DNA of 64,000 nt, from positions 62,001-126,000 of the forward strand of contig NZ_QTQI01000009.1 of assembly GCF_003853705.1 (NCBI RefSeq), read 5' to 3'. Numbering within the stretch: the first letter of the stretch is position 1; each line of letters starts with the position of its first letter. Shown here in pieces: positions 1-28,016 of the stretch. The DNA is from Burkholderia sp. Bp8992 (GTDB taxonomy: Bacteria > Pseudomonadota > Gammaproteobacteria > Burkholderiales > Burkholderiaceae). The notes under the pieces were generated by a model. It worked only from the letters and a program-made list of their open reading frames with translations. It ran no database searches and was not told where the DNA came from. Made by a program: the position numbers and the translations under genes.

Positions 1-2238
1 GCGGATCTCGTGCCGCCGCACGCGTATCTCGCGTTCTACTTCTGGCTGCGCGATGCCTATCGCGTCGACGCGGTCATCCATCTCGGCAAGCACGGCAATC
101 TCGAATGGCTGCCGGGCAAGAGCGTCGCGCTGTCCGACGCATGCTGGCCCGACCTCACGCTCGGGCCGCTGCCGCACCTGTATCCGTTCATCGTCAACGA
201 TCCGGGCGAGGGCAGCCAGGCGAAGCGCCGCGCGCAGGCCGTGATCGTCGATCACCTGATGCCGCCGCTCACGCGCGCGGAAAACTACGGTCCGCTGCAG
301 GACCTCGAGCGACAGGTCGACGAATACTACGAGGCGCTGATGGTCGATGCGCGGCGCGCGAAACTGCTGCGCAAGACGATCCTCGCGACGATCGCCGAGC
401 ATCGTCTGCATGACGAACTGAGCGTGTCGCCGCCGCGCGATGCGGGCGACGAGGATGCGCTGCTGACGCGCGTCGATGCATGGCTGTGCGAACTGAAGGA
501 AGCGCAGATTCGCGACGGGCTGCACGTGTTCGGCCTGTCGCCGGCCGATCGCCAGCGCCGCGACACGCTGCTCGCGCTCGCGCGCTTTCCGGTCGGCGAC
601 GGCAAGGGCGCGCGGGCGGGGCTGATCGGCGCGCTGGCGCGCGATCTCGCGCTCGGCGACGACTTCGATCCGCTCGCGGCCGACTGGGCCGCGCCGTGGG
701 GCGGCCCGCGCCCGGCGATCCTGCAGGCGCTCGATGCATCGCCATGGCGCCATGCGGGCGATACGCGCGAGCGGCTCGAACGGCTCGCGCAGCAATGGCT
801 GGACGGGCTGTGCGCGCCCGACGGCAACACGGGCGCCGACGCGACGCCGCCCGGCGCATGGCCCCACACGCTCGCGGTGATCGGGCGCGTCCGCGCGACG
901 CTGCTGCCGGCGCTCGACGCGTGCGGCGGCGAGGAAATGCGCCAGCTGCTGCGCGGGCTCGACGGCCGCTTCGTGCCGCCGGGGCCGAGCGGCTCGCCGT
1001 CGCGCGGCCGCCCCGACGTGCTGCCGACCGGCCGCAACTTCTACTCGGTCGATACACGTGCCGTGCCGACCCAGGCCGCATGGTCGCTCGGCCTGAAATC
1101 CGCGCAGCAACTGATCGAGCGCCATCTGCAAGATCACGGCGACTATCCGCGCGCGATCGGCCTGTCGGTATGGGGCACGGCGACGATGCGCACGGGCGGC
1201 GACGACATCGCGCAGGCATTCGCGCTGCTCGGCGTGCGGCCGAAATGGGCGCACGGCAGCCATCGCGTGACCGACTTCGAGATCCTGCCGATCGAGATCT
1301 TCGACCGGCCGCGCATCGACGTGACGCTGCGCGTGTCGGGCTTCTTCCGCGACGCGTTCCCGAACCTGATGCACCTGTTCGACGCGGCCGTGCAGGCCGT
1401 CGCCGCGCTCGACGAGCCCGAGGAACTGAACCCGATCCGTGCGCGCATCGAGCGCGAACGTGCGAAATGGGTCGCGCAGGGCGTGGCGCCCGACGAAGCG
1501 CGGCGCCGCGCCGGCTGGCGCGTGTTCGGCGCGCGGCCGGGCAGCTACGGCGCGGGCCTGCAGGACCTGATCGACCAGCGCCGCTGGCAGACCGACGCCG
1601 ATCTGGCCGATGCCTACCGCCAATGGGGCGGCCATGCGTATGCGCAGAACAGCGCGGGCGACGCGGCGGCCGACGTATTCGGCGAGCGGCTCGCGACGAT
1701 CGACGTCGTCGTGCAGAACCAGGACAGCCGCGAGCACGACATCCTCGATTCGAACGACTACTACCAGTTCCAGGGCGGGATGACGGCGGCCGTGCGGCAC
1801 CTGTCCGGGCAGCAGCCGAGCATCTATCACGGCGACCATGCGAACCCGGTCGCGCCGAAGATGCGCACGCTGCGCGAGGAAATCGCACGCGTGATCCGCT
1901 CGCGCGTCGTCAACCCGAAATGGCTCGACGGCGTGAAGCGGCACGGCTACAAGGGCGCGGCCGAGATGGCGGCGACCGTCGACTACCTGTACGGCTATGA
2001 CGCGACCGCGCGCGTGCTGTCCGACCACCAGTACGCGCTCGTCGCCGACGCGTACCTGTTCGACGACGCGACTCGCGCGTTCCTCGAACAGCACAACCCG
2101 AAGGCGCTGCACGGCATCTGCGAACGCTTCGTCGAGGCGATGCAGCGCGGCCTGTGGCAGCAGCCGGGCGACTATCGCGAGCGGATCGAGGCGGTCTGGC
2201 TCGCGAGCGAACAACTCCAGGAAGGGGGACGGCGATGA
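1..2238 (+). CDS. cobN: Cobaltochelatase subunit CobN, C-terminal part (5' end outside window)
   Basis: Large subunit of the aerobic cobaltochelatase, which holds hydrogenobyrinic acid a,c-diamide while Co2+ is inserted with ATP hydrolysis by its AAA+ partners. The frame is open from the first base, giving 745 residues; the family usually exceeds 1,200, so about 500 N-terminal residues lie upstream. Visible family signatures include the segment HLGKHGNLEWLPGK near the left edge, LPTGRNFYSVDTRAVPT, a GLSVWGTATMRTGGDD segment and NDYYQFQGGM with a following HLSG. These are typical of the CobN/BchH/ChlH family. The TGA stop overlaps the next start codon (ATGA), so translation is probably coupled to the ChlI/ChlD gene that supplies the motor subunits. 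CobN is preferred over ChlH because a B12 locus follows and no chlorophyll genes are present. Confidence 0.96.
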   Translation, partial: ADLVPPHAYLAFYFWLRDAYRVDAVIHLGKHGNLEWLPGKSVALSDACWPDLTLGPLPHLYPFIVNDPGEGSQAKRRAQAVIVDHLMPPLTRAENYGPLQDLERQVDEYYEALMVDARRAKLLRKTILATIAEHRLHDELSVSPPRDAGDEDALLTRVDAWLCELKEAQIRDGLHVFGLSPADRQRRDTLLALARFPVGDGKGARAGLIGALARDLALGDDFDPLAADWAAPWGGPRPAILQALDASPWRHAGDTRERLERLAQQWLDGLCAPDGNTGADATPPGAWPHTLAVIGRVRATLLPALDACGGEEMRQLLRGLDGRFVPPGPSGSPSRGRPDVLPTGRNFYSVDTRAVPTQAAWSLGLKSAQQLIERHLQDHGDYPRAIGLSVWGTATMRTGGDDIAQAFALLGVRPKWAHGSHRVTDFEILPIEIFDRPRIDVTLRVSGFFRDAFPNLMHLFDAAVQAVAALDEPEELNPIRARIERERAKWVAQGVAPDEARRRAGWRVFGARPGSYGAGLQDLIDQRRWQTDADLADAYRQWGGHAYAQNSAGDAAADVFGERLATIDVVVQNQDSREHDILDSNDYYQFQGGMTAAVRHLSGQQPSIYHGDHANPVAPKMRTLREEIARVIRSRVVNPKWLDGVKRHGYKGAAEMAATVDYLYGYDATARVLSDHQYALVADAYLFDDATRAFLEQHNPKALHGICERFVEAMQRGLWQQPGDYRERIEAVWLASEQLQEGGRR

Positions 2239-3311
2239 CCGATCCGACGATGCACCGCGCCCGCGCGGTTTTTCCGTTTGCGGCGCTCGTCGCGCAGGAC
2301 GCGCTGCAGCAGGCGCTGCTGCTCGCCGCGATCGACCCGTCGCTCGGCGGCGTGCTCGTGAGCGGGCCGCGCGGCACCGCGAAATCGACCGCCGCGCGCG
2401 GCCTGGCGGAACTGCTGCCTGAAGGGCAATTCGTCACGCTGCCGCTGTCGGCGAGCGACGAGCAGGTGACGGGCACGCTCGATCTCGCGCATGCGCTGGC
2501 CGAAAACGGCGTGCGCTTCCGGCCGGGCCTGCTCGCGCGTGCGCACCTCGGCGTGTTGTACGTCGACGAAGTGAACCTGCTCGCCGACGGCCTCGTCGAT
2601 ACGCTGCTGGACGTCGCCGCGAGTGGCGTGAATATCGTCGAGCGCGATGGCGTGTCGCACGCGCACGACGCGCGCTTCGTGCTCGTCGGCACGATGAATC
2701 CCGAGGAGGGCGAGTTGCGCCCGCAACTGCTCGACCGCTTCGGGCTGATGGTCGAACTGGAGAACTGTTTCGACGCCGCGCAGCGCGAGCGGATCGTGAA
2801 GGCACGGCTCGCGTTCGATCTCGACCCGGACGCATTTCGCGCGCGTCATGCTTCCGCGCAGCGTGAACTCGGCAACCGGATTCATGCCGCGCGTGCGCGG
2901 CTGGCGACGCTGGATTTCGACGATGCGGTTCATGCACGCGTCAGCGCGCTGTGCATCGCCGCGGCCGTCGACGGGCTGCGCGCCGATCTCGTGATACTGC
3001 GCGCCGCGCGCGCACTGGCTGCGCTCGAGCAGGCCGATGCGGTGACGGTGTCGCATGTCGAGCGCGTGGCGGAAGCGGTGCTGCGGCACCGGCGCCATGC
3101 CGGTACGCCGCCGTCGCACGGATCGTCGCAGCACGGTGGCGAGCGCGATGCTCATTCGCCGCCGGATGCACGCCGGCAGTCCGGCAACCGGCACGGCGAG
3201 ACACAAGGCGATGCATCGGCATCCCAGGGCGACTGGGGCTACTTGCCGCCCGAGCCGGCCGGCCTGCGCGACGTCAAGAGCGTGGTGCCGCTGCCGCTAA
3301 AAAAACGCTGA
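2235..3311 (+). CDS. ChlI-like AAA+ chelatase subunit (zero-frame product of the chlI/chlD gene)
   Basis: AAA+ motor of the cobalt chelatase, 358 aa from an ATG overlapping the cobN stop. Walker A is GPRGTAKST (residues 44-52), Walker B is VLYVDE (about 107-112), and the sensor/arginine-finger segment GTMNPEEGELRPQLLDRF lies near 152-169, all typical of the ChlI/BchI/ChlD N-terminal module. The last 60 residues are a low-complexity, His/Ser/Gly-rich linker, as found in ChlD between AAA+ and VWA modules. The zero frame stops just after a run of seven A residues. The VWA half of ChlD continues without interruption in the -1 frame, so this is best read as the short product of one gene that makes both small and medium subunits. 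No separate small-subunit gene is visible here. Confidence 0.9.
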   Translation: MTDPTMHRARAVFPFAALVAQDALQQALLLAAIDPSLGGVLVSGPRGTAKSTAARGLAELLPEGQFVTLPLSASDEQVTGTLDLAHALAENGVRFRPGLLARAHLGVLYVDEVNLLADGLVDTLLDVAASGVNIVERDGVSHAHDARFVLVGTMNPEEGELRPQLLDRFGLMVELENCFDAAQRERIVKARLAFDLDPDAFRARHASAQRELGNRIHAARARLATLDFDDAVHARVSALCIAAAVDGLRADLVILRAARALAALEQADAVTVSHVERVAEAVLRHRRHAGTPPSHGSSQHGGERDAHSPPDARRQSGNRHGETQGDASASQGDWGYLPPEPAGLRDVKSVVPLPLKKR

Positions 3312-3359
3312 GCCATCGAGCCGGCGCCGCCGCGAACGCCGTTCGCGGTCCTCGATGGC
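3299..3359 (+). promoter_or_regulatory. Programmed -1 ribosomal frameshift signal in chlD (A7 slippery site plus stem-loop)
   Basis: The heptamer A-AAA-AAA occupies 3299-3305, in phase with the zero-frame codons CTA AAA AAA CGC TGA, as needed for tandem -1 slippage. Six bases downstream begins a nested hairpin. A perfect 9-bp outer stem pairs GCCATCGAG (3312-3320) with CTCGATGGC (3351-3359). A perfect 8-bp inner stem pairs CCGCGAAC (3330-3337) with GTTCGCGG (3341-3348) around a GCC loop. Slippery run, 6-nt spacer, strong hairpin and a zero-frame stop inside the spacer form a textbook -1 arrangement. Frameshifting in chlD genes of cobalamin producers that lack a separate small-subunit gene is described in the literature. 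Transcriptional slippage on the A run is the main alternative. Confidence 0.85.
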
Positions 3360-3988
3360 AGGCAGGCGCGGCCGCGCGCGTACCGGGTGCGGTACGCGCC
3401 GGCACGGCCGTCGCGTGGCCGGCGACGCTCGCCGCGAAACGTGTCGGCAAGCTGCATCACGATCATCTGCGCTTCCGGAAGCGCGCGGGCACGCCGCATG
3501 CGCTGCATTGCTTCGTGCTCGACTGTTCGGCGTCGATGCTGTCGCACGACCGGCTCGCGCTCGCGAAGGGGCTGATCGTCGCGTATTTCGACCAGGCCGC
3601 GCGCGACCGCGTCGAAACCGCGCTGATCTGCTTCGGCGGTCAGGGCGCCGCCCGGCGATTCGGCCCGGCCGTGCCGCGCTGGTGGAATGCGCGCTGGCTC
3701 GAACCCGTGGACGGCGGCGGCGGCACGCCGCTCGCTGACGGCATCGCGGCGGCCGCGCAACTGCTCGCGCGCGATGCGCGGCGCGCGCCCGGCAAGCAGC
3801 GCTGGCTGTGGGTGCTGTCCGACGGGCGCACCCGCGAGACGCCGGCCAAGCCCGCGGCGGCCGATCACGTCGTATTCGTCGACTTCGACGATGCGGCCGT
3901 GCGGATCGGGCAGGGCGCGCGGCTCGCCGCCGCATGGGGCGCGCAGTGGACAACGGCCGACGCGCTTCGCACGGATCTTGCGGGCTGA
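3305..3988 (+). CDS. chlD: ChlD C-terminal half: von Willebrand factor A domain, reached by -1 frameshift
   Basis: This is the medium-subunit part of the cobaltochelatase. Joined to the preceding AAA+ module by a -1 shift at the A7 run, it gives a protein of about 584 aa, a normal ChlD length. The segment holds a VWA/integrin-I fold with the MIDAS motif DCSAS in CFVLDCSASM, the later TPLADGI and WVLSDGRT strands, and a C-terminal LRTDLAG. The linker contains the conserved GKLHHDHLRFRKRAGTPHA block that precedes VWA in this family. No start codon with a credible ribosome-binding site exists in this frame near the domain boundary, so independent translation is unlikely. VWA MIDAS contacts are thought to link AAA+ rings to CobN. 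A plain inactivating frameshift is the alternative, but the shift falls exactly on a slippery site. Confidence 0.85.
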   Translation, partial: TLSHRAGAAANAVRGPRWQAGAAARVPGAVRAGTAVAWPATLAAKRVGKLHHDHLRFRKRAGTPHALHCFVLDCSASMLSHDRLALAKGLIVAYFDQAARDRVETALICFGGQGAARRFGPAVPRWWNARWLEPVDGGGGTPLADGIAAAAQLLARDARRAPGKQRWLWVLSDGRTRETPAKPAAADHVVFVDFDDAAVRIGQGARLAAAWGAQWTTADALRTDLAG

Positions 3989-27983: not shown

Positions 27984-28016
27984 AACAAAAAAATACCCGC
28001 CGCGCAATGCGGCGGG
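27984..28016 (-). terminator. Rho-independent terminator after the glutathione transferase gene
   Basis: On the minus strand CCCGCCGC (pairing 28009-28016 with 27996-28003) forms a perfect 8-bp GC stem around a 5-nt loop, followed by TATTTTTTTG. It lies 50 bp after the GST stop codon. Confidence 0.9.

Follow-up and report, generated by a model that had tools for sequence, protein, structure and literature searches.

A Burkholderia chlD gene predicted to yield a short and a long product by -1 programmed frameshifting

In dnaX, one gene makes the long and short AAA+ subunits, tau and gamma, by means of a slip site of the A-AAA-AAG type and a stem beyond it; there the zero frame is the long one and the shift shortens the product. 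The 38- and 60-kDa subunits of magnesium chelatase are encoded by separate genes. We describe here the vitamin B12 gene chlD of a cobN-chlD cobaltochelatase operon in Burkholderia sp. Bp8992, a strain close to B. arboris, found in a stretch of 64,000 nucleotides (contig NZ_QTQI01000009.1, positions 62,001 to 126,000; hereafter the window). Judged from its sequence and that of its relatives, this gene very probably carries a selected -1 programmed frameshifting site that gives rise to a short and a long product. The closest described system is the frameshifted chlD (fs-chlD), or magnesium chelatase fs-gene, cluster of Antonov et al. (2013; PMC3711429), which, as far as the available portions of the reports go, has the same gene and the same -1 shift, the same A-AAA-AAR site (PMC5009743) and the same proposal that two cobaltochelatase subunits come from one gene (PMC9227772); on this basis the window gene shows no essential difference from the published cluster. 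The original prediction, an earlier annotation of the window from its sequence, had stated that such frameshifting is described in the literature, and the available text of PMC3711429 does name Burkholderia as one of six genera in the cluster. Gene class, genus and mechanism have been in print since 2013, and the locus is a very clean instance; what is added here is the strictness of the arrangement, the covariation of the stem, the exact spacing of codon, stop and stem, and a set of counter-cases with chlD in frame.

The window opens inside cobN, the 5' part of which falls upstream of the window start, and the cobN TGA and chlD ATG overlap as ATGA (2235-2238). The linkage of cobN to an AAA+ gene that is expected of an aerobic CobN-type cobaltochelatase is therefore present. 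The features (lengths in amino acids, aa, and nucleotides, nt) are:

10..2238, + strand: cobN, cobaltochelatase large subunit (TIGR02257, 1065 bits against a curated cut-off of 822; PF02514, E 1.5e-291)
2235..3311, + strand: chlD zero frame, 358-aa ChlI-like AAA+ protein, the short product (PF01078, PF17863 and AAA_5 over cut-off)
3299..3305, + strand: slippery heptamer A-AAA-AAA, its first A being a third codon position
3305..3988, + strand: chlD -1 frame, linker and VWA domain, 227 codons (PF13519 VWA_2 over cut-off)
3306..3311, + strand: 6-nt spacer CGCTGA, that is, the codon CGC and the zero-frame stop TGA
3312..3320, + strand: outer stem, 5' arm, immediately after the stop codon
3329..3337, + strand: inner stem, 5' arm, its first pair a G-U
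3341..3349, + strand: inner stem, 3' arm
3351..3359, + strand: outer stem, 3' arm

The zero frame runs from ATG 2235 to TGA 3309-3311. Its longest open reading frame (ORF) begins at GTG 2154 (385 aa), and the ATG is the preferred, inferred start because relatives align from it. The closest solved relatives of the zero-frame protein are 1g8p, the magnesium-chelatase 38-kDa subunit (E 4e-78), and ChlI in 8osf and 6l8d; matches to TIGR02442 and TIGR02030 stay below the models' own cut-offs, and neither half of chlD matches the CobS and CobT models TIGR01650 and TIGR01651 at E 0.001. The VWA half reads from 3305 (ACG) to TGA 3986-3988 and is related to the magnesium-chelatase 60-kDa subunit 2x31 (E 1.7e-7). 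The AAA+ and VWA modules thus match those of the 38- and 60-kDa subunits in sequence but, unlike in magnesium chelatase, one AAA+ coding stretch would serve both products.

The join reads CTA-AAA-AAA-CGC-TGA. The outer stem (3312-3320/3351-3359) has 9 base pairs (bp), Watson-Crick throughout; within it lies the inner stem, with 8 bp (3330-3337/3341-3348) plus one G-U. The original prediction is borne out in its 358-aa ChlI-like zero frame, its in-phase A-AAA-AAA with a 6-nt spacer holding the zero-frame TGA, its nested hairpin with perfect 9-bp and 8-bp stems (the inner one gaining the G-U pair) and its long product of about 584 aa (357 + 227); the single point amended is a small count, since between the slip site and the zero-frame stop there is one sense codon, CGC, instead of four codons.

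Taken by itself the A7 run has little evidential value, as chance would put 0.42 such runs on the two strands of the window and two are seen, and the fold z-score of the hairpin is a modest -2.1, with 5 of 200 shuffles at least as stable. The case therefore rests on comparison among relatives. The AAA AAA that follows an A-ending codon does run against local codon habit, as lysine is written AAG 51 times and AAA 13 times in the nine ORFs at the window start, where codons ending in A number 169 of 3130 (window G+C 68.5%). The other A7 of the window (27987-27993) is found next to an inverted repeat rich in G+C, on the downstream side of a glutathione-transferase-like ORF of the minus strand, and resembles an ordinary terminator, both the family and the terminator having been judged by eye.

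Zero-frame relatives were drawn from 41 near genomes, 200 family genomes, 369 class genomes and one named collection (the best 80 of a longer list, from which the genome of the window itself may be missing), and their AAA+ and VWA pieces were located separately by tblastn. Among 207 loci (L001-L207) the VWA frame lies at -1 relative to the AAA+ frame in 178, in frame in 17 and at +1 in none, the remainder having no VWA match (nine) or no AAA+ match (three). Every one of the 178 -1 loci has an in-phase AAAAAA(A/G), then exactly one sense codon, then a stop, the heptamer being AAAAAAA in 126 and AAAAAAG in 52; 169 of them are distinct over 140 nt and not all are independent (L129 and L010, for example, stem from a genome present twice), while L148, with a slip site and no VWA match, stands outside this set. 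In the window's own family, where 98 of the 200 genomes matched at E 1e-40 and 102 gave no match, all 101 loci fetched keep the heptamer, the codon and the stop (nine weaker family matches, at 46-51% identity and E 9e-55 to 1e-61, fall outside the 101). The zero-frame stop is TGA at 106 of 107 sites and TAG at one. Genera with the -1 layout include, among the matches listed, Burkholderia, Paraburkholderia, Caballeronia, Trinickia, Pandoraea, Cupriavidus, Variovorax, Hydrogenophaga and Pseudomonas. Homopolymer runs are error-prone, and a sequencing error or a decaying gene could be suspected from a single genome; the identical join at 178 loci (169 distinct) in many genera refutes this explanation, to which we attach practically no probability. 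Relatives with the two halves in one frame, or without the A run, would have spoken against frameshifting, and the 101 family loci contain neither.

A second explanation makes the locus two genes, the VWA half being translated by re-initiation or from a start of its own. GTG 2951 does begin a 345-codon ORF in the -1 frame, and an ATG occurs among the first 70 VWA-frame codons at 45 of the 178 -1 loci (GTG and TTG not counted). That GTG, the only start-like codon upstream of the join in this frame, belongs however to an Arg/Ala-rich stretch obtained by reading the AAA+ half out of frame, and the other 133 loci have no ATG in those 70 codons. In the window the -1 frame after the join holds no ATG, GTG or TTG before codon 71 (GTG 3515), in agreement with the earlier claim that the VWA half has no start of its own, and re-initiation is for this reason unlikely. 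The -1 frame of some relatives becomes open only a short way ahead of the zero-frame stop (by 13 nt in L052, by 19 nt in both L110 and L111, by 37 nt in L008); blocked almost as far as the slip site, it can hardly join the zero frame elsewhere, which argues against a separate start. Such a start would also leave the A run and the stem unexplained, and we consider the two-gene explanation very improbable.

The stem was counted at 105 distinct sites, the window included and L024, which is partly N after the slip site, excluded. The nine bases that follow the stop pair at 9/9 in 71 sites, 8/9 in 29 and 7/9 in 5, so that 100 of the 105 pair at 8 or 9 positions, a degree of pairing reached by 6.5% of mononucleotide shuffles, and the best 5' arm begins directly after the stop in 88. 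The outer and inner helices were then compared in a gap-free alignment of 38 sites, selected to be diverse among the 84 sites, of 107 in all, whose loop agrees with the 30-nt register. Paired cells make up 97.1% of the outer helix (helix 1), where 5 of 9 pairs show double-sided changes, and 78.3% of the inner helix (helix 2), where 4 of 8 pairs do; the original prediction had named compensatory changes in both stems, and conservation of the A run, among the checks to make. Over the whole structure the double-sided cells number 72; shuffles average 25.3, none of 500 coming as high, and sliding the partners yields no more than 34. Where the best partner departs from 30 nt, the loop is a multiple of three in 18 of 24 sites, as a -1 frame that codes for protein would demand. 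At sites of the Pseudomonas type another hairpin occupies this position; of 40 distinct sites, 28 pair at 10/10, 10 at 9/10 and 2 at 8/10, and one pair of that hairpin changes on both sides. Within its available text, PMC5009743 reports strong structure potential at the site and no strong conservation of the structure's sequence, with which this covariation fits.

Conservation of the heptamer and covariation of the stem are together strong evidence for a selected signal at the join, the hairpin being its predicted stimulator. Some points weigh against this reading and should be set beside it. The choice of 38 sites leans the covariation count toward structure, and two of the five measures of the same covariation test are weaker: pairs with a double-sided change number 9 against 6.0 (15 of 500 shuffles as high) and further pair types 26 against 23.4 (53 of 500). 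Moreover, the frameshifting recorded in Escherichia coli for cassettes from three cluster members was 63, 40 and 10% with 11, 9 and 7 As, so that the 7-A construct shifted only 10% (PMC3711429, available text). A search of 2900-3700 against Rfam 15 gave one sub-threshold, chance-level match, on the other strand and elsewhere in the stretch.

The relation between A run and stem also bears on transcriptional slippage, in which the polymerase would add or drop As so that part of the mRNA has both halves in one frame. A seven-A run within so G+C-rich a window could invite it, as could the longer run of the distant relative L108, with three AAA codons before GCC TGA. For slippage, however, bacterial polymerases as a rule need some eight or nine As, and at 52 of 178 sites there are only six (AAAAAAG); the exact spacing to a covarying stem, which polymerase slippage does not need, is kept as well. 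On these two grounds polymerase slippage is an improbable explanation, though less so than two separate genes, and tandem slippage of transfer RNAs (tRNAs) is favoured.

Under such -1 frameshifting, most ribosomes would follow the zero frame and halt at TGA 3309, giving the 358-aa BchI/ChlI-like AAA+ protein. A ribosome with AAA AAA in its P and A sites would be paused by the hairpin beginning 6 nt further on, its two tRNAs might slip back one base at A-AAA-AAA, and the ribosome would then enter the VWA frame, producing a ChlD-like protein (about 584 aa) that combines the shared AAA+ module with the VWA domain. Short and long products would probably co-assemble as the ATPase motor for cobalt insertion by CobN. 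By analogy with the family members tested in print, the shift would occur at a few to some tens of percent. The arrangement resembles dnaX in its slip-site type, its stem and its two AAA+ subunits of one motor, and differs in that the shift lengthens the product rather than shortening it. Unlike in dnaX, an upstream Shine-Dalgarno (SD) stimulator is not conserved, an SD-like 4-mer lying 4-18 nt upstream in 34 of 182 pattern matches (these include a few accidental ones; the strict set is 178). The locus offers a clean natural case in which a single gene would provide two subunits of the same motor; slip site, stop and stem stay in register in every family locus fetched.

The original prediction thus holds for frameshifting, which is well supported, and its account of why the gene frameshifts, namely that one gene supplies both AAA+ subunits where a small-subunit gene is missing, is plausible. 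A 2020 abstract by Antonov reportedly makes the same two-subunit proposal for the short and long products. In the available text of Kuznetsov et al. (2022; PMC9227772), the short product is proposed as the small and the long product as the medium cobaltochelatase subunit, and the short product of the window may likewise be the small subunit of the enzyme. A ChlI-type paralog was found in none of 25 same-genus genomes. A second ChlI-like gene is absent at E 1e-12 from 41 of 43 fs-chlD genomes, which agrees with the proposal of a missing small subunit. The two others are G550, whose second gene is of the separate-ChlI kind and which also has a second CobN homologue, and G972, with two ChlI-like genes each beside a CobN copy. 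Two or three CobN homologues occur in G043, G550, G969 and G972.

Several results tell against the small-subunit role. A separate ChlI-type gene is also absent at E 1e-12 from all 20 genomes with chlD in frame (one of them, G254, carries a 64-codon ChlI-like fragment besides), 19 of which have CobN and 16 of which have no CobS-like protein over 500 bits, so that a single fused product may be sufficient somewhere. Furthermore, 10 of the 43 fs-chlD genomes, B. arboris among them, have a CobS-like protein (526-540 bits, cut-off 558.55). The in-frame fused genes (L112-L120, L126, L158, L163, L172, L180, L188, L196, L199 and L231) come from Neptuniibacter, Marinomonas, Psychromonas, Motiliproteus, Granulosicoccus and other gammaproteobacteria, and chlD is in frame in G735, G739 and G918 too. 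G246, a genome of about 0.4 Mb and possibly that of a symbiont, retains CobN and an in-frame chlD. An in-phase A-AAA-AAR site occurs in none of the 14 in-frame linkers scanned (14 of 17 loci, L117, L119 and L126 being left out), and any in-phase X-XXY-YYZ heptamer occurs in three (L120, L158 and L172). The heptamer of L158, from Neptuniibacter, is missing from its congener L188, the only case that could be tested against a congener, and an A7 run in L196 is out of phase. The conserved WG-x-Met of the in-frame linkers was considered as an internal start and dropped; as frameshifted genes have Leu or Met at the same place, it is probably a protein motif.

Since the missing ChlI gene accompanies both layouts, either fused ChlD works alone or a short product is made there by an unrecognised route. 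The frameshifting may then be real and yet fix the proportion of AAA+ subunits with a VWA domain to those lacking one, or tune the amount of ChlD, rather than substitute for a missing and indispensable small subunit. We regard this as possible, although the less likely account. The 20 in-frame genomes just described, the linkers lacking A-AAA-AAR and the absence of the L158 heptamer from L188 speak for it. Against it, the in-frame genes may use an unrecognised signal, or have a small subunit so diverged that the search misses it; among the 20 genomes, two (G254 and G256) branch with separate ChlI genes in a tree and may be of another type; and the strict conservation in the window's family suggests that the short product matters there. 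In the tree, of 65 AAA+ domains, the frameshifted label needs three changes and the deep forks are weak, for which reason no claim is made on the ancestral layout (its row L212 is labelled fused, but the two matches do not form one stretch, which is the pattern of neighbouring bchI and bchD genes).

It is possible that Gammaproteobacteria run aerobic cobaltochelatase from a single chlD in two ways, one frameshifted with two products and the other in frame, lacking both a separate ChlI and a visible shift signal. Were the in-frame form to work alone, the VWA-less subunit would be dispensable in principle; the frameshift, strictly conserved in the window's family and in Pseudomonas, would in that event set the ratio for a mixed ring instead of making up for a lost gene, and its RNA element of slip site, one codon, stop and stem would be widespread and outside Rfam 15. 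The in-frame comparison makes the idea of small-subunit replacement directly testable, the question being whether fused ChlD and CobN show activity when no VWA-less partner is present.

CobS-like proteins over 500 bits were found in 5 of the 25 same-genus genomes, and a CobS/CobT-like pair in some Burkholderia is the other qualification to the claim that one gene supplies both subunits for want of another. B. arboris LMG 24066, the nearest named relative among the matches listed (96% protein identity; 93.2% DNA identity over 1755 nt), has such a pair at L238:6073-9290, scoring 537 and 279 bits, both below the cut-offs. The pair adjoins DmsC-like and iron-sulfur proteins on a contig that differs from that of cobN, a setting which suggests another job, although the pair may yet take part in B12 synthesis.

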